IMG/VR virus record: IMGVR_UViG_3300020123_000219
Coordinates: 24,199 to 88,198 of that record
DNA length: 64,000 nt
Source: a virus
Strand: one strand, 5' to 3'
A program made the translations under genes and the position numbers. The first letter of the stretch is position 1. Every line of letters begins with the position of its first letter. The notes below the pieces were generated by a model that saw only the letters and a program-made list of their open reading frames with translations, was not told where the DNA came from and ran no database searches. Below are positions 3,118 to 58,038 of this stretch, one piece after another.

Positions 3118-4499
3118 GCGCCCTCCCAGATCGTGATCAGCCGGCAGGAGTAGTTACCCGACCCAAGGAGGGTCGCGCCGAGCCCGCTGGTGTCGTGCTG
3201 GAACCCGGCCAGCGCTATCGCGTCGCCTGCGTTGAGCCTGAGGTACCGGGTGACGGTGCACGCGGTGACCAGTCCCTCGACCGAGGCGGCCGGGTCGGAG
3301 TTGACGGCGGACTGGCCTCCGCCCCACAGCGTGAACGTGGTCCCGGAGTTGTAGTTCGCTGACGTGATGGTGAGCCCTGCCGCCGCGACTGTGGTAGTGG
3401 CGTTGCTGGCGATGGCCACGCACCCGTGCGCGTAGTACAGGCCGCCGACCGGGGCAATCCACCCGTTCGAGTTCGACGCGCTGTAGTTATCCATGGTCGC
3501 CGAGAACAGCTGGATAGGCTGCCCGATCGCCGGCAGGCCGGTGGACGAGCCCAGCGGGATCGGGGAACCGCCCAGGTACTGGCGCTGCATGACCGGCGGG
3601 TACAGCAGGAACGCGGCAGCGTCCCTGACGTTCTTGTTGAAGAACGGCGCGTCAACGGGGACGCTCACCGCCGCCCCCGACGCGTGCGCGTGCGCGGCAG
3701 GCGTGATCGGCACGGTCCCGGACGCTGCCGGGCCGGTCATCACGACGTTCTCAGCGGCCGGGGTGCCGATGTCAAGGCCCAGCGTGGTGCCCTGCCCGCC
3801 GTAGAACGTCATCCCGGTCAGCGACGCGGGCACCATCTGGGTGCCTCCGGCCGCGACCGTGCCGGTCAGGGTGGTGGACGGCGGCGGGAACGCGTCGTTC
3901 GACGGGACAGGCAGCGGCGCGGTGCCGGACAGCGCGCACACCCACCGGCAGGCCAGGCGCGGGAACCTGGACGTGCCGTTCAGCAGCGGCCAGGAGAACG
4001 CTCCCGTGCCGGTCTGGTTCACCGACATCGCGATGAAATCTCCGGAGCCGCCGACCACCCCGGTCACCGCGATCTGGCACAGCCGCGCCCCCGATGCCAC
4101 GGAGAAGCTGCCTGACGTGTTCGGCATCCGCATACCGAACTTCGTGGTCGCCGTGCCGTTCTGCTGCGCCTGCACGCCGACCGCGAACGCCCCCCCGCCG
4201 CCCGTGTAGTTCAGCGGCGCGGTCACCTCGGCCAGGTACCAGCCGGGGAACTGGCCGAAGTACTGGGCGCTGTCGGTGGTCAGGAAATGCCCGCTGACCG
4301 AGTCCGCGACCTCGGTGTCCAGGGTGACTGGCGTGTTCGTGTCGGCGGTGATCACCTGGCTGGTGAGGGTCTGGGCGCCGATGAACATGGGCGGGTGCGA
4401 CAGCAGCTGGATGGTGCCCGCGAAGTCCGCTCGCAGCTGCGGCGCGGTGATCACCTCGGCGGTGGACCAGGTGGACGGCTGCGGCAGGTAAAGCGACAC
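3114..4499 (-). CDS. minor tail/fibre protein
   Basis: This 461-residue protein begins MSLYLPQPSTWSTAEVITAP, the usual start of actinophage minor tail proteins downstream of the tail hub. It is rich in Ser/Thr/Gly and beta structure. Two C1q-like stretches are visible (FPGWYLAEVTAPLNYTG near 100 and GLYYAHGCVAIASNATTT near 375), giving head domains separated by a linker. It sits between the hub gene and a smaller fibre gene with coupled start and stop codons. A receptor-binding role is likely, but no carbohydrate-binding motif is certain. Confidence 0.7.
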   Translation of the reverse strand: MSLYLPQPSTWSTAEVITAPQLRADFAGTIQLLSHPPMFIGAQTLTSQVITADTNTPVTLDTEVADSVSGHFLTTDSAQYFGQFPGWYLAEVTAPLNYTGGGGAFAVGVQAQQNGTATTKFGMRMPNTSGSFSVASGARLCQIAVTGVVGGSGDFIAMSVNQTGTGAFSWPLLNGTSRFPRLACRWVCALSGTAPLPVPSNDAFPPPSTTLTGTVAAGGTQMVPASLTGMTFYGGQGTTLGLDIGTPAAENVVMTGPAASGTVPITPAAHAHASGAAVSVPVDAPFFNKNVRDAAAFLLYPPVMQRQYLGGSPIPLGSSTGLPAIGQPIQLFSATMDNYSASNSNGWIAPVGGLYYAHGCVAIASNATTTVAAAGLTITSANYNSGTTFTLWGGGQSAVNSDPAASVEGLVTACTVTRYLRLNAGDAIALAGFQHDTSGLGATLLGSGNYSCRLITIWEGA

Positions 4500-33254: not shown

Positions 33255-35075
33255 TTAGCCTGCGGTCCCCCACGGCCCGTCGGACATGTAGTCCTCCGGA
33301 ACCCCGTGCTCGGTGAAAGCCTTGCAGGTAGCCGGGCGGACCTCGGCCATGCGTGCCTTCAGCCGATCCGTCCCGCTCTCGGCGAGCCACGGCCACGGCA
33401 CGGTCTTGCCCGCCTGCAGCGCCGTGATCAGCCGGAACGCCGCGTCAGTCAGGCCGCCGAACGTGTGCCGGTTCGACCCGCCCGACGGCAGCGCCCCGGT
33501 CTTGTACCCGGCGAAGTTCCACATGTACACCGGGACGGTCTTCGGGATCAGGTCATCGATCAGGGTCTCGCTCATGCTGTTCGCCGCGATGCTGCGCCCG
33601 TACTGGATGCAGTTCGACGGAAGCCACCCCGGCCGGGTCTGCTCGTCAGTCAGGATCACGACCTCCGTGTGGTACGGCTTCAGGTGATCCCGCACCGCCG
33701 CCGGGATATCAGTCCCGCCCGGAGCGGGCTTCACGGAGAACTTCTCCATGATCTTCAGCACCGACTCGCCCTTCCCGAACGGCACCGGCTTCGAATGCGC
33801 CCAGAACTCCGCCAGGTCCGCGTTATCCGCCCGCACCGCCAGCGCGGCGCCGAACAGCGCAGCAGCATCCGCCCAGTCCATGTCCGAATGCTCCGTCATC
33901 TTGTACGCCCACATCGACGGGGACCGGTCCACCAGGACCAGCGGGCGCCGCAGCGGAGTCACGTTCGCCAGCGACGCGTCCAGCGCCTTCTCCAGCGGCC
34001 ACGCCCACCGCAGCGACGGCGCGTTCCTGTACGCAAGCCAGAACGCGAACGGGAACTCACCCGACCGCGCGACCGCCTCCGGGTCGGCCAGACGGGCAGC
34101 CACCTTCGCGGCGACCGCGTCCGAGATCCCGGCCCGGTCGAAGTTCGCGAGGTTCCGCCGCAGTGCCATGTACGGCATCGACGGGATCGCCGCCTCCCAC
34201 TTCCCGGCAGTCATCTCGCCATGCGACGCGGCCCGCTCCCACGTCATCCCCGCCTTCTTAGCCGACTCAGCCGTGATCTTCGACGGATCGCGCATCAGCC
34301 GCTTGTTCTGCCGCAGAACCCGCAGCACTGCCGGGATCTCCGCGTCCTGGTCGTGGCGCCGCGCGATCAGGTACTTCCACAGCACCGCACGGTACGCCGG
34401 GTCGCCCTCGCAGCCCGGAGCGTGATGCCCCAGCGCGCCGCACAGGTAGCACGTGCCGCGAGACGTGGCGTTGTACCGCGCGTTGACGATCTCGATCACG
34501 TCACCGAACCGGACCGCAGCCGACGGAGTATCGTACTTCGCGACCGCGTACTCCGTGTACAGGCGCGGCAGCGCATCGGCGATGCCGCGCTTCAGGCCCT
34601 TCGGCATGGTGTTCCGGCCGTACTTGGTGATCCAGTACGCGATCAGCTCGCCTGGCTCGTCACCGCGCTGCAGGACAGCGTCGGTCACCTTCCGGACCGT
34701 CCACTCCTGAGGGTCGGCGCGGTAACGTGCCTCTTCCTTGCGTGCCTGCGCGAACTCGGCTGCGCCGTACACCGGCCCGAGCCGCAGGTTCCCGCCATCG
34801 CGTGCCCGCAGGTAGTTCAGCAGGCCACCGGCCCAGTCAGGGTCCGTGCTGGCGTTCGCGCGCACCAGCTCCGTCCACCGGGCCACCCGGGCGTCCTTGC
34901 CCTCGTGCAGGGTCTTTTCGTCCGGCATGTAGCACGACGCCAGCACGTACAGCTCTGACTTCAGGTCCCGCAGGTAGCCCTGCGCGCCCAGTGCGGTCTT
35001 CGCGTCCGGCGCAGCCTCGGAGAAGACCGGCGACGACGGCAGGGTCGTGACCCTGCCCCTGTTGTACCGCGACAT
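33255..35075 (-). CDS. rsr: Ro60/Rsr-like TROVE-domain RNA-binding protein with vWA domain and zinc knuckle
   Basis: The product is 606 residues. The first ~370 residues fit a TROVE ring of helical repeats (starts MSRYNRGRVTTLPSSPVF; contains GLLNYLRARDGGNL and EIPAVLRVLRQNKRLMRD). The C-terminal vWA-like domain has DRSPSM as MIDAS, then FGAALAVRADNADL and VVILTDEQTRPGW. In this family the ring binds misfolded or damaged RNA and the outer face binds Y RNA. A CCHC knuckle (CYLCGALGHHAPGC) is inserted in the helical part, which I do not recall from standard Ro proteins. A Y RNA-like transcript lies directly upstream. Confidence 0.88.
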   Translation of the reverse strand: MSRYNRGRVTTLPSSPVFSEAAPDAKTALGAQGYLRDLKSELYVLASCYMPDEKTLHEGKDARVARWTELVRANASTDPDWAGGLLNYLRARDGGNLRLGPVYGAAEFAQARKEEARYRADPQEWTVRKVTDAVLQRGDEPGELIAYWITKYGRNTMPKGLKRGIADALPRLYTEYAVAKYDTPSAAVRFGDVIEIVNARYNATSRGTCYLCGALGHHAPGCEGDPAYRAVLWKYLIARRHDQDAEIPAVLRVLRQNKRLMRDPSKITAESAKKAGMTWERAASHGEMTAGKWEAAIPSMPYMALRRNLANFDRAGISDAVAAKVAARLADPEAVARSGEFPFAFWLAYRNAPSLRWAWPLEKALDASLANVTPLRRPLVLVDRSPSMWAYKMTEHSDMDWADAAALFGAALAVRADNADLAEFWAHSKPVPFGKGESVLKIMEKFSVKPAPGGTDIPAAVRDHLKPYHTEVVILTDEQTRPGWLPSNCIQYGRSIAANSMSETLIDDLIPKTVPVYMWNFAGYKTGALPSGGSNRHTFGGLTDAAFRLITALQAGKTVPWPWLAESGTDRLKARMAEVRPATCKAFTEHGVPEDYMSDGPWGTAG

Positions 35076-35114: not shown

Positions 35115-35283
35115 TCAGGTGACCGCGCCCGACAAGAAATGCCGGAAGACATATCAAGGACGGGACTCGAACCCGCGACCTCTACCTGCGTAGGGTAGCG
35201 CTCTTCCAACTGAGCTACCAGCACCGAATGGTGTGCTGTTATTGAAGGAACTCCCGGCGGGCACCCCGGGCGCGGTCATCTGA
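35115..35283 (-). ncRNA. Y RNA-like transcript with tRNA-mimicking module
   Basis: The transcript would be about 169 nt. Ends pair as TGACCGCGCCCG (35278-35267) with CGGGCGCGGTCA (35131-35120), extended past one A/C mismatch by TCAG/CTGA. After an asymmetric internal loop a second helix forms, GCCGGGAG (35258-35251) with CTTCCGGC (35148-35141). Inside are perfect D, anticodon (loop CTACGCA) and T arms (35152-35224). The would-be 5' acceptor strand instead forms its own hairpin with upstream CAGCAC, and the 3' side does not match it. Bacterial YrlA-type Y RNAs have this stem plus tRNA-like plan. It precedes the Ro60 gene by 40 bp. Confidence 0.8.
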
Positions 35284-35388
35284 AGTTATGTCCCCTCACC
35301 GACAACAATCGGGAAGCGGCTGTGGTTTCCACTGCGAAGGTGAGAAGTAACCGCTGCCCAGCACCCCGGTGACGGGGTAGAACGAAAA

Positions 35389-38493: not shown

Positions 38494-38810
38494 CGGACAG
38501 GATCAGGATCTACCTGGAGCCACGCGACCTGTGGGTCGGGCTCTACGTCAGCCCCCGGCACCTCTACTGGTGCCCGCTGCCCTGCCTCGTGGTCAGGTGG
38601 ACGAGGAAACGCAGGATAAAGTACCCGCTGGTGCCGAACTGCGCGGGCTGCGGCCACATGTGGGCTCTCCACGGCCTGAACTACCGAGGCGGCGGCTGCT
38701 ACGCCGACAGCGACTGCCCGTGCCTTGAATACGAGGCTAGTGGTGAGAAGCCCGGAGTTCTTCCCATTCTGCGAGCGCTCGCCGGGACGCTGCGACGACC
38801 TCGGGGGTGA
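38484..38810 (+). CDS. actinophage protein with PRDLWVGLYV motif and Cys cluster
   Basis: Up to 108 residues from GTG 38484. RIYLEPRDLWVGLYVSPRHL followed by CPLPCLVVRW is a widespread motif of short Streptomyces phage proteins. A Cys/His cluster follows (CAGCGHMWALHG, then C, C-P-C). The last 25 residues are antisense to the MuF-type gene and may be beyond the original end. Function unknown. Confidence 0.65.
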   Translation: MHLTDRIRIYLEPRDLWVGLYVSPRHLYWCPLPCLVVRWTRKRRIKYPLVPNCAGCGHMWALHGLNYRGGGCYADSDCPCLEYEASGEKPGVLPILRALAGTLRRPRG

Positions 38811-40965
38811 TCTTGTGGTGCCCCCAGTGCAGGTCACCGCGAGCCCACCTCTTCACCGCGTTGATCGCGGTGGCGATGGCCTGTGACTCATCCATGCCCT
38901 GGTCCCGCATGAGGGCGTGGGCTATGTGCTCGATATAGTTCGGGAGCTTCTGCGGACGACTGACGTGCCGGTCCGGTGTGTGCCACAGCCCGTGCGTGCC
39001 CAGCAGGTCCGGGGTCGCCTCAAGACGGGGGGTCTCCGCTGACTTCGACACCATCGCCGCGATGTGGTCCCACTCCGACGCCAGTTCCATCCGCAGGTCC
39101 GGATGCGACCCCATCTCCCCCGGATGGAACCACCCCAGATCCTCCGGGTCACCGTCCGGGTGATCCGGGTCGACGACATGGCCGCGTCGCTGCGGGACCG
39201 CTGATTCTGACGGTACTTCGAGGAAGTACACGCGGTGCTTCCCGTTCGGCGAGTCCACCCAGCCCGTGACCTTCCCGTCGGGCGGCAGGCACCTGGTCTC
39301 CTCCGCCCACTCCCGCATCGCCGCGTCCAGCGGCAGCTCCCCGTCCTCCATCCGCCCGCCCGGGAACTCCCACTTCCCGCCCGCGTCATCATCCGGGTCA
39401 GGGCGGCGCCGCATCATCAGCACCCGCCCGGAATCCGCAGCGTGCACGGCCACCGACGCGGCCCGCATGCCCTTCGACGCCGCCGAGTCGGTCGCTCCCG
39501 GGTCACCCTCGTGGTACTGGTAGTCGTGGGACTTCTCCGCCTCCCGCGCCGTCTCCATGTCAACCCGGCCCACATAGGCGTGGATCGGCTCGCCCAGCTC
39601 GTGGTACGCCACCGCGTGATGATGCCCGTCGATAATGATCAGGTGCGTGCCCCGGTCAGTGTCCGGCCGGTCGATCATCACGACCGGCTTCGGCTGCCTG
39701 CCCGCCGCCAGGTCGTCCTTGATCTTCCGCTTGAAACGGTCGACCTTCGCGTCCTCATGCCCCGCCGCCCACTTCTCCGGGGTATAGTTCACCTGCGTCG
39801 CAGGCACCTGCACCGGGCCGGTCCACTCGGCCCGGTGCACCCACTCAATCGAGTGAGCCGGGTAGTCCGGCAGGAGCTGCTGGTATACCCGCCCGCCCAC
39901 CGGGTCCGAGCGGTCCCGCCACGGCTTCGCCTTCACCAGCCCCGGCTCGTCGTCCTTCCCGATCATCCGCATGATCCGGTTCGACGGGCGCAGGTAACAC
40001 CGGCAGTTCGGGTGCTGCGGGGGCGCTTTGACGCCGCCGGGGAACTTCTCCCCGAGCCTGATGGTGCCCTTCGCCTCATTCGCCCGGCACACCTTGCACA
40101 CCAGGCCGTCGTGGCGGGTGACCCACCGCACCCACTTGATCCCGGCCCTCTGGTATACCACCAGCATGCTCGCGCCAGATGCCCGCGCAGCCTCCGTCGC
40201 GCTGATCATCTGAGCCCGCCACCGGGCAAGGAACGCCCGCTCCAGCGCATCAGCGAGCCGCTGCGAGCCCCACCCGTTCGCGGTGGCAACCGCCAGGATC
40301 TGCGCGACCCGGGCAGCCAGGCTGCCCACGATCAGCGCAACCTCGGCGCTCAGCATTGCTGAGGTCGCCCACGCCACGAAAGCTGCGTCGGCTGCTATCA
40401 GCAATGCGAGCTGCTGGCCGGGAGGCAGCTGCGGCGGCGGGGCAGGCGGCGGCGGTACCCGCTGCGGCGGCGGATTCCCCCGCATCTGCCGCGCCTGCTG
40501 CCGGCGGCGCTTCTTCTTCCGTTTCGCCGGCTTCTTACCCGCCGGCGGAGGCGTCAGCAGCGGTTCCGCGAGCATTGCCTCGGCCTGGGCTTTCGCGTCT
40601 GCCCAGGCCCGCGCCCACAGCCTGGGCAGCACCTGCTCCAGCGACTGCGCGAACCGGTCCAGGAACCCGCGCTCAGCCAGCCACTGCGCCGCGAACGCGG
40701 TCACGTCCGCTGAGGGCGGCGTGTTGGTCTCGACCGGCGGGGTCGGCGGGCCTGGCAGCGACGGCGGGGGCGGCGGCACCGCTCCGCGCACCGCGTACTT
40801 CAGGATTCCCGACGCGTTCAGCCACGCCGTGGCGATTCCCTCCGGGCTGACGGACGCGAGGGCGTCCCAGACCTGGGTCGCGAACTCCGCAGCGGCCGGG
40901 TCCGCGTCAGCCTGCCAGCGTGCCGCTGCCTCGTGGTCGTCGCCGTAGTGCCACGGGGTCGTCAT
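38737..40965 (-). CDS. MuF-type head protein fused to ParB-like and Nudix domains
   Basis: The product is 742 residues. About 200-340 is a MuF/minor head domain (WRAQMISATEAARASGASML, then VCKVCRANEAKG and HPNCRCYLRPS). About 380-470 has a ParB/sulfiredoxin-like motif (LIIIDGHHHAVAYHELGEPI). About 500-630 is a Nudix hydrolase with a full Nudix box (GGRMEDGELPLDAAMREWAE followed by E). A Lys/Arg-rich stretch (KKPAKRKKKRRRQQ) lies near 150. MuF proteins are packaged with the portal, so the C-terminal enzyme may be delivered into the host. Start and portal stop overlap. Confidence 0.8.
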   Translation of the reverse strand: MTTPWHYGDDHEAAARWQADADPAAAEFATQVWDALASVSPEGIATAWLNASGILKYAVRGAVPPPPPSLPGPPTPPVETNTPPSADVTAFAAQWLAERGFLDRFAQSLEQVLPRLWARAWADAKAQAEAMLAEPLLTPPPAGKKPAKRKKKRRRQQARQMRGNPPPQRVPPPPAPPPQLPPGQQLALLIAADAAFVAWATSAMLSAEVALIVGSLAARVAQILAVATANGWGSQRLADALERAFLARWRAQMISATEAARASGASMLVVYQRAGIKWVRWVTRHDGLVCKVCRANEAKGTIRLGEKFPGGVKAPPQHPNCRCYLRPSNRIMRMIGKDDEPGLVKAKPWRDRSDPVGGRVYQQLLPDYPAHSIEWVHRAEWTGPVQVPATQVNYTPEKWAAGHEDAKVDRFKRKIKDDLAAGRQPKPVVMIDRPDTDRGTHLIIIDGHHHAVAYHELGEPIHAYVGRVDMETAREAEKSHDYQYHEGDPGATDSAASKGMRAASVAVHAADSGRVLMMRRRPDPDDDAGGKWEFPGGRMEDGELPLDAAMREWAEETRCLPPDGKVTGWVDSPNGKHRVYFLEVPSESAVPQRRGHVVDPDHPDGDPEDLGWFHPGEMGSHPDLRMELASEWDHIAAMVSKSAETPRLEATPDLLGTHGLWHTPDRHVSRPQKLPNYIEHIAHALMRDQGMDESQAIATAINAVKRWARGDLHWGHHKITPEVVAASRRALAEWEELRASHH

Positions 40966-52730: not shown

Positions 52731-52802
52731 AGGGGCTGACGGATTTCGAGACCGCGACCTCGGCGTTGGCAACGCCGCGCTCTGCCGCTGAGCTACAACC
52801 CC
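52731..52802 (-). tRNA. tRNA-Gly(GCC)
   Basis: Acceptor GGGGTTG/CAGCCCC, D stem GCTC/GAGC, loop TTGCCAA, T region TCTCGAA (slightly unusual). Confidence 0.9.
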
Positions 52803-53977: not shown

Positions 53978-54049
53978 CGCCCCATGCCGGTGCCGACCCG
54001 GCTCCCTTCCGCTTACAGGGCGGTTGCGCTGCCGTTGCGCCAATGGGGC
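53978..54049 (-). tRNA. tRNA-Thr(TGT) with C33 and atypical T-loop
   Basis: Acceptor GCCCCAT/ATGGGGC, stem CCGC/GCGG, loop CCTGTAA (C33). The T stem GCCGG/CCGGC closes a GTCGGCA loop lacking T54 and A58. Confidence 0.82.
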
Positions 54050-56865: not shown

Positions 56866-57558
56866 TCAGCCGCTGAGCCCGGCCATGAGGATCAGGTCGC
56901 GGGCCAGCTCGGCGGGGTCGGTGACGGAGTCGAACGCCATGACCTTGACGTGCTTAGGGTTGGCCTGCTCGGCTCCCTGATAGGACGCGAGGGTCTTGTC
57001 GTGGGCGTCGCCGTGGCCGACGACCGCGACCGCGAAGTACCGGTCCGGGTTCGCCGCCGACAGCACCCCCGCGAATTCCTGCCAGTCAGTGGCCTCCCCG
57101 TCAGTGCAGACCAGGCACAGCAGCACGGGCGGCTCGGTCTCGTCCCCGAACTCGGAGTTGAAGTCCGCGAGCGCTGCCTTCCACGCGGGCATGATCGTGG
57201 TCCCGCCGCCCCACCGGATGCCCTGCCACTTGCGGGCGAAGTTCGAGGAGTTGAAGTCCCCCAGCTCGGTGTGGACGCTGGAGAACCCGTGGACCAGCAG
57301 CCCGCCCATCTCGTCGGACCCGCCTGCCTGCTCGGCGGCGGCCTCGGAGTCCTCTTTCTCCAGGGCGGCGACGAACAGCGGCATGGCCTCGCCGACGACT
57401 TCGCGGCGGGGTATCCCGCTGCCCTCGGCTGCCTCCCAGTTCATCGAGTCGGAGGTGTCGAGCAGGCAGATGACTTCCTTGTTGCGCCACGCGGGCACGA
57501 GCGGCTTCTCCACTCGCGGTGCCTGCGACGGCAGCTGTGCCTCAGTCAAGAGGGGCAT
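56866..57558 (-). CDS. vWA-domain protein (TerY-like)
   Basis: The product is 230 residues from ATG 57558. MIDAS motif CLLDTSDSM, then RWGGGTTIMPAWKAALADFN with the second Thr, and VLLCLVCTDGEATDWQEF. Single-domain bacterial vWA proteins of this size often act with kinases, phosphatases or AAA proteins in stress or defence modules. Here no such partner is adjacent. It is the second vWA protein in the window besides the Ro60. Confidence 0.8.
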   Translation of the reverse strand: MPLLTEAQLPSQAPRVEKPLVPAWRNKEVICLLDTSDSMNWEAAEGSGIPRREVVGEAMPLFVAALEKEDSEAAAEQAGGSDEMGGLLVHGFSSVHTELGDFNSSNFARKWQGIRWGGGTTIMPAWKAALADFNSEFGDETEPPVLLCLVCTDGEATDWQEFAGVLSAANPDRYFAVAVVGHGDAHDKTLASYQGAEQANPKHVKVMAFDSVTDPAELARDLILMAGLSG

Positions 57559-57666
57559 TCCTTTCCAGTTTGTTACGGCGGGGCCGGGCCGCACCCGTGA
57601 GCCAGCACGGGAACTAGCCCTGCTTGCAGATGCGCCTCGGCTGCTTCGCGGCCCGGCCCCTTAATA

Positions 57667-57701: not shown

Positions 57702-57758
57702 GGAAGATCCCGTTTGCGTATCCGGGTCTACCCGGGCCGATTGCGACCGGGATCTTCC
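57702..57758. ncRNA. 11-bp stem with internal hairpin abutting tRNA-Ala(TGC)
   Basis: GGAAGATCCCG (57702-57712) pairs with CGGGATCTTCC (57748-57758), enclosing CCGGG/CCCGG. It begins 2 bp after the tRNA 3' end on the minus strand. Processing signal, terminator or small RNA. Confidence 0.5.
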
Positions 57759-57759
57759 G

Positions 57760-57831
57760 TGGAGCTGGCGGTGATTGAAACCGCGACATCCTGCATGCAA
57801 AGCAGGCACTCTGCCACTGAGTTACAGCCCC
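57760..57831 (-). tRNA. tRNA-Ala(TGC)
   Basis: Acceptor GGGGCTG/CAGCTCC with the G3-U70 alanine identity pair, stem CCTGC/GCAGG, loop TTTGCAT, T-loop TTCAATC, A73. Its first base directly follows the permuted tRNA. Confidence 0.95.
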
Positions 57832-57907
57832 TTGATGCCGGCCTCTGCCATTGAGGTACCGCCCCGTGAGTGAAGCGGACGGGACTCGAACCCGCAACTT
57901 CCGGCCG
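57832..57907 (-). tRNA. apparently circularly permuted tRNA-Ala (3' half before 5' half)
   Basis: On the minus strand the order is 3' half, linker, 5' half. 3' half (57907-57871): CG, GCCGG, AAGTT, T arm GCGGG-TTCGAGT-CCCGT, CCGCTTC, A73. Linker CTCAC (57870-57866). 5' half (57865-57832): GGGGCGG, TA, D arm CCTC-AATGGCA-GAGG, CCGGC, ATCAA. The acceptor halves pair in all seven positions, with G3-U70 (alanine identity), and the anticodon stem CCGGC/GCCGG pairs in all five. The ends abut the flanking tRNA-Ala genes with no spare base; joining them gives a 7-nt loop, ATCAACG. Remnants of two tandem tRNA copies are the alternative. Confidence 0.7.
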
Positions 57908-57979
57908 TGGAGCCAGGGTGAATCGGACACCCGACCTCTTCCGTGCGAAGGAAGCGCGCTGCCACTGCGCTATGGCCCC
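57908..57979 (-). tRNA. tRNA-Ala(CGC)
   Basis: Acceptor GGGGCCA/TGGCTCC with G3-U70, stem CTTCC/GGAAG, loop TTCGCAC, T-loop TCCGATT (unusual C55), A73 directly followed by the permuted tRNA. Confidence 0.9.
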
Positions 57980-57984
57980 ATTTG

Positions 57985-58038
57985 CGCCTGCTGCCGCCTT
58001 TACCGTGTATACCGACATGGAGGGGGCGGCAGCAGGCG
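57985..58038. repeat. 14-bp inverted repeat before the tRNA-Ala block
   Basis: CGCCTGCTGCCGCC (57985-57998) and GGCGGCAGCAGGCG (58025-58038) with a 26-nt loop, 5 bp from the tRNA-Ala(CGC) 5' end. Leader hairpin or terminator. Confidence 0.55.

Follow-up and report, generated by a model that had tools for sequence, protein, structure and literature searches.

Between two alanine tRNA genes, the 64,000-nucleotide stretch of phage DNA analysed here (the window) carries a 76-nt piece in which the 3′ half of a tRNA precedes the 5′ half. The piece probably encodes (at about 60%) a conserved non-coding phage RNA, in the form of a circularly permuted, non-decoding tRNA(-Ala)-like RNA. Judged from the sequence, the piece at 57907-57832 is real and is neither chance nor debris, and the conservation of its shape through compensating mutations is probably that of a working RNA. 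The window is part of an 88,198-base IMG/VR record from a soil phage, which is itself a fragment.

Read along the minus strand from 57907, the 3′ half begins with CG, followed by GCCGG (the 3′ side of the anticodon stem), AAGTT, the T arm GCGGG-TTCGAGT-CCCGT, CCGCTTC and A73. After the linker CTCAC, the 5′ half continues to 57832 as GGGGCGG, TA, the D arm CCTC-AATGGCA-GAGG, CCGGC and ATCAA. The acceptor (7/7), anticodon (5/5), T (5/5) and D (4/4) stems are fully paired, with two wobbles in the acceptor (G2.U71 and G3.U70). When the halves are rejoined in the normal order, ARAGORN calls a tRNA. An earlier note on this DNA had described a 3′ half, a 5-nt linker and a 5′ half, with seven acceptor and five anticodon-stem pairs formed between the halves and a 7-nt anticodon loop (ATCAACG) on joining; each of these points is reproduced, and the T and D stems pair in addition. 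In RNA folding, the minimum-energy and centroid structures are one and the same, namely the permuted cloverleaf. Its energy is ordinary for the composition (z -1.24), so the argument rests on pattern and conservation. A strict scan of both strands for permuted tRNAs, with complete acceptor (7), T (5), D (4) and anticodon (5) stems and the T-loop motif required, matches the window at a single site, and 100 dinucleotide shuffles of it give no match.

Table. Coordinates of the permuted piece, its parts and surroundings, and of related features (window positions unless a contig is given).
Feature	Location	Strand	Basis or remark
Circularly permuted tRNA-like unit, 76 nt	57832..57907	(-)	Sequence, tRNA boundaries, fold, conservation in other phages
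3′ half: CG overhang, anticodon-stem 3′ strand, variable region AAGTT, T arm, acceptor 3′ strand, A73 (57871)	57871..57907	(-)	Sequence; alignment with four other phages
Linker CTCAC, 5 nt, A73 to G1; acceptor stem closed as a hairpin unless processed	57866..57870	(-)	Sequence
5′ half: acceptor 5′ strand GGGGCGG (57865-57859), TA, D arm CCTC/GAGG (C10-G25), anticodon-stem 5′ strand, tail ATCAA	57832..57865	(-)	Sequence; alignment
tRNA-Ala(CGC), upstream neighbour; its 3′ processing would create the 5′ end of the piece	57908..57979	(-)	ARAGORN, Rfam
tRNA-Ala(TGC), downstream neighbour; an RNase P cut at its 5′ end would create the 3′ end of the piece	57760..57831	(-)	ARAGORN, Rfam
Inverted repeat of 14 nt with perfectly matching arms 26 nt apart, next to the Ala trio on its upstream side	57985..58038	(.)	
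Inverted repeat of 16 nt with 88% complementary arms 25 nt apart, next to the Ala trio on its downstream side	57702..57758	(.)	
TROVE-domain (Ro60/Rsr-like) protein; possible partner system, binding to the piece a candidate only	33255..35075	(-)	PF05731, E=2.1e-14
Unit flush between Ala-CGC and Ala-GGC	G002		
Unit flush between Ala-TGC and Ala-GGC	G064 (L231)		
Unit flush between Leu-CAG and Leu-CAA	G060		
Unit flush between Ile and Asp tRNAs	G040		
Unit flush between Phe and Asp tRNAs	G044 (also further contig L220)		
Tandem permuted tRNA-like pieces	L399:1430-1498 and 1501-1570; L215 (-) 4056-4199		In cultured phage BAjuniper and in G062/G063
Permuted unit with a 24-nt linker and C1-G72 that directly abuts tRNA-Pro(CGG) and tRNA-Pro(GGG)	L020:17066-17154		Array syntenic with that of the window

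The ends of the piece coincide with those of its neighbours. With Rfam tRNA matches covering 57979-57908 and 57831-57760, the interval that remains is exactly 57907-57832, bearing out the earlier observation that no base is spare on either side; the ARAGORN ends of the flanking genes take in one base more than those of Rfam. This flush placement supports the proposal that processing of the neighbours (RNase P and the 3′ end) would free the piece, the release itself being predicted. Flush packing is common among ordinary tRNAs in these arrays, a point against the reading as a conserved non-decoding RNA. ARAGORN gives the same alanine set as was first listed, with TGC and CGC present and GGC absent in the window. 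The tRNA total in the window is about 38, and Rfam gives two good tRNA matches, at 52731-52802 and 53978-54049 (-), which are missed by ARAGORN. Long inverted repeats directly outside tRNA blocks, as beside the Ala trio, are also seen by eye upstream of the Ala tRNAs in G002, G010 and G011; repeats bordering tRNA blocks are possibly candidate processing signals. The search found no relatives of the protein encoded at 56869-57594, between the Ala and Pro tRNAs.

A flush permuted unit between tRNAs occurs in five further metagenomic phage records, giving six sequences in all; G040 and G044 are closely related, so the six flush members represent about five lineages. The relatives were located via portal and TROVE proteins and via DNA patterns. 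Common to all six are a start at an A/CG boundary after the upstream discriminator, the D stem CCTC/GAGG (C10-G25) and a tail of 4-5 nt before the next tRNA. Five members have a linker of 5-6 nt; that of G064 is far longer, at about 77 nt. Looser relatives lie between or after Pro tRNAs in G010 and, as two in tandem, in G062 and G063. Cultured Microbacterium phages also carry looser pieces, BAjuniper with two in tandem and Percival, Gretchen and Floof with one each after a tRNA. None of these is annotated, and the genome announcement of BAjuniper gives only three tRNA genes, with the pieces omitted (PMC10652889). By RNA folding the BAjuniper pair partly adopts another fold, and it is counted as a looser relative only. 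A homologue in normal order is found in another phage as a contiguous tRNA (L200:10054-10124) with a 6-nt anticodon loop, G3.U70, A73 and the D stem of the permuted family, including C10-G25.

BLAST of the Ala trio against cultured phages returned ordinary tRNA-Ala only; the 76-nt piece alone as query led to the Microbacterium phages. No flush permuted piece appeared among the matches listed for a D-arm pattern run over bacterial and archaeal genomes. Two candidate members, L064 and L065, were dropped as false hits to coding repeats. Many RF02553 and R1 matches inside arrays were rejected as two ordinary tandem tRNAs read across; such matches were excluded by demanding no overlap with ARAGORN calls.

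An alignment of related phages had been proposed as a check for compensatory changes in both halves. In the alignment of five sequences (the window and four other phages), six pairs are changed on both sides, and the covariation score is reached by none of 500 shuffles. Standard pairs fill 98% of the pair cells, falling to 39-59% in slid-partner controls; several members were found by pattern or pairing scans, so cell-pairing percentages are biased upward. The cleanest test of pairing is a 5′-junction pattern that says nothing on the downstream half. It matched six contigs in 2.9 million and all six carry the complementary 5′ half, which makes debris unlikely. Acceptor strands pair 7/7 with their own partner and most cross-lineage swaps pair worse, with the exception of G002 and G060, which are interchangeable. 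The acceptor of G064 (TGATGAG/CTCATCA) is wholly unlike the others, yet is paired 7/7 across its long linker. All six members become ideal cloverleafs when rejoined. Two features of a circularly permuted tRNA gene, a 3′ half upstream of the 5′ half with an intervening sequence and a complete cloverleaf kept by covariation, are present.

The earlier note had also offered "the debris of a tandem duplication" as an explanation, in which functionless halves remain after a tandem tRNA duplication or a deletion. A cut tandem pair does leave the order 3′ half, spacer, 5′ half, phage tRNA arrays do decay, and the close relative G011 has two Ala tRNAs separated by a 113-nt spacer without the piece. Debris is nevertheless very unlikely, as five other records keep the arrangement with compensatory changes across lineages in the acceptor, T and anticodon stems, none has an intact tandem tRNA there, and the flush placement is retained amid different neighbours.

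The alanine identity elements pointed out earlier, G3-U70 and A73, are both present in the window piece, as looked for in an alanine-accepting RNA, and are kept in five of the six members, even beside non-Ala tRNAs; the G040/G044 and G060 lineages retain them though not adjoining Ala tRNAs. Within the five-sequence alignment, G3.U70 is invariant and A73 is kept, while positions 4-6 covary. Among 526 ordinary tRNAs, G3.U70 is found in 22 of the 24 Ala tRNAs and is rare elsewhere. The alanine signal does not extend to every member: A3-U70 and C73 take its place in the sixth, G064/L231, which has the 77-nt linker, and L199 lacks it too. On account of these two exceptions, the initial view of a family uniformly of alanine type was given up. 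Taken with the L200 homologue, the alanine signals favour a putatively alanylatable, non-decoding RNA.

These signals would also suit a reduced tmRNA, permuted and in two pieces, of which the piece would be the alanine tRNA-like domain; tmRNA is alanylated, and permuted tmRNA genes exist and work unligated (PMC3978253). For the present piece this is extremely improbable. The next tRNA begins after only 5 nt, too little space for pseudoknots or a tag reading frame, the D stem is a normal one of 4 bp, and the sole family match reaches 18.4 bits against a cut-off of 70.

The six joined anticodon loops are ATCAACG, ATCTTCG, ACTCTCG, ATTTCG, GGCAACG and GTAACG. The would-be anticodons are CAA, CTT, TCT and CAA, with two 6-nt loops, and never that of alanine. 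The loops vary in sequence and length between lineages and none fits the acceptor identity, so that no functional anticodon is found; this variability suggests that the piece would not read codons. In four of the six the loop has exactly 7 nt, a length that an RNA with no decoding role would not need, and this counts against a purely non-decoding RNA.

The 7-nt loops favour instead a genuine permuted tRNA gene, the "ligase-dependent tRNA" first suggested, whose freed ends an RNA ligase of phage or host would join within the anticodon loop to give a decoding tRNA. The cloverleaf is perfect after joining, and the ends left by RNase P/Z (5′-P, 3′-OH) suit a T4-type ligase. Green-algal permuted genes are joined in the anticodon loop, with linkers of 1-74 nt (PMC3978253). 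RtcB is present in record G060, and the RNA ligase of Streptomyces phage Kela adjoins its Ro gene. Such a tRNA is unlikely, however. The anticodon is not conserved, and with loops that are never NGC despite the alanine identity, alanine charging would misread codons. RtcB and PF09414 RNA ligases were not found in the 88-kb record of the window (G000), a fragment, nor in the 160-kb G002 record, and RtcB requires other end chemistry. The junction flanks, by eye only, are acceptor strands of mature tRNAs with no splicing-endonuclease (BHB) context seen. A search for T4 Rnl1 was empty, but its positive controls were empty likewise, and it is hence uninformative.

As a non-decoding tRNA-like RNA, the piece would be co-transcribed with the tRNA array. 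Processing of the 3′ end of the upstream tRNA and an RNase P cut of the downstream tRNA would release an RNA of ~76 nt, with a 5′-phosphate and a 3′-OH inside the 'anticodon loop'. The released RNA would fold into the tRNA L and serve as a tRNA mimic for proteins that recognise the elbow and acceptor, in a manner resembling the tRNA-like module of YrlA, minus the Ro-binding stem. A further cut, in the short linker, may occur in most members; A73 would then be open to CCA addition and to charging with alanine by AlaRS. This enzyme reads G3.U70 and ignores the anticodon, so a broken anticodon loop would not matter for charging. The alanylation step, a prediction from sequence, has about one chance in three. 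It is possible, though doubtful, that actinophage-like viruses hold a whole family of alanine-charged, anticodon-broken permuted tRNAs, processed by their neighbours and put to a non-decoding use (e.g. as an amino-acid donor or as a decoy for AlaRS or tRNA-cleaving defences). A published study reports that phage tRNAs counter tRNA-cleaving defences through anticodon-loop changes (PMC10264068). By analogy, an RNA without an intact anticodon loop would fit a decoy or resistant substrate against such defences.

The earlier note gave no phage case, and a review gives permuted tRNA genes in algae and archaea only, with a splicing endonuclease behind them. The note overlooked YrlA (RF02553), which is the closest known RNA of such topology, and the TROVE/Ro60 gene of the same window. 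In YrlA, according to a review, PNPase binds the tRNA-like domain, DusA and TruB modify it, and Rsr binds the basal stem (PMC8394870). A true YrlA would be a bacterial Y RNA tethering the phage Ro/TROVE protein to a nuclease. In the piece, the arms of the tRNA-like domain (D, T and acceptor) follow the order of YrlA, a TROVE gene is present in the genome, and YrlA-type RNAs lie beside TROVE genes in related and cultured phages. The tRNA-like part matches RF02553 at 32 bits, below half of the gathering score of 69, with E-values of 2.7e-5 on 351 nt and 0.005 on the whole window; RF02553 also matches in 13 of 14 control genomes at loose thresholds, and weak matches were therefore not used alone.

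Several features make a true YrlA likewise improbable. The model lays the T arm, acceptor hairpin and D arm on the piece, but its Ro-binding helix lands on the flanking tRNAs, where it mispairs and would overlap both mature tRNAs; a Ro/Rsr-binding stem formed from the RNA's own 5′ and 3′ ends is lacking. The TROVE gene is not near, at a distance of about 22.8 kb. In G040 and G044 the flush piece is accompanied by a YrlA-type RNA encoded separately, and the TROVE gene is absent from BAjuniper, Percival and Floof and from records G002 and G060. In YrlA-type RNAs read by eye, the 3-70 pair is not G.U. By analogy, the piece would work like the YrlA mimic module, but it fails two defining features of the family and so is no YrlA.

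Other observations concern the surroundings of the TROVE gene and further loci. Upstream of it lies GGTTACTTC (35351-35343 (-), within a foldable stretch at 35285-35382 (-)) without a tRNA-like domain; in several YrlA-type RNAs of phages the same motif precedes the tRNA-like domain, and the stretch is possibly a Y RNA without the tRNA-like module. Just upstream of the gene, 35152-35224 (-) gives an Rfam tRNA match of 45.6 bits with three acceptor mismatches, uncalled by ARAGORN. A 742-aa protein at 38737-40965 (-) is a fusion of phage Mu F-like and NUDIX domains. In phage Kela, the RNA ligase (L361:2229-2981, PF09414) lies directly upstream of the Ro-like gene and beside a YrlA-type RNA, an arrangement which is a phage version of the Ro/RNA-repair link.

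In a conserved, flush-packed phage version, the usual end processing of tRNAs would by itself suffice to produce a permuted tRNA, and the inside-out tRNA fold would then not be limited to Ro-bound Y RNAs. Standard annotation is silent on the pieces, as in BAjuniper, and they are therefore probably commoner than known. Their presence in cultured phages opens the RNA to direct testing.

In comparison with known systems, the piece shares with the permuted tRNA genes of red and green algae and Thermofilum the upstream 3′ half, the short intervening sequence, the break in the anticodon loop and the full cloverleaf when joined. Unlike these, it is phage-borne, has no splicing-endonuclease site visible by eye and no conserved anticodon, and its ends are set by neighbouring tRNAs. 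The permuted two-piece tmRNA has a similar permuted order and alanine acceptor and functions with a gap, whereas the piece has no tag ORF or pseudoknots and an ordinary D arm. YrlA likewise has a T arm, a short-loop acceptor-like hairpin, a D arm and a closing anticodon-like stem, carries tRNA tertiary signals and is found in phages with Ro60/TROVE. The piece differs from it in having no Ro-binding basal stem, ends flush with tRNAs, the D stem CCTC/GAGG and, in most members, G3.U70 and A73, and it occurs also in phages without TROVE. In kind it stands between permuted tRNA genes and the YrlA mimic domain.
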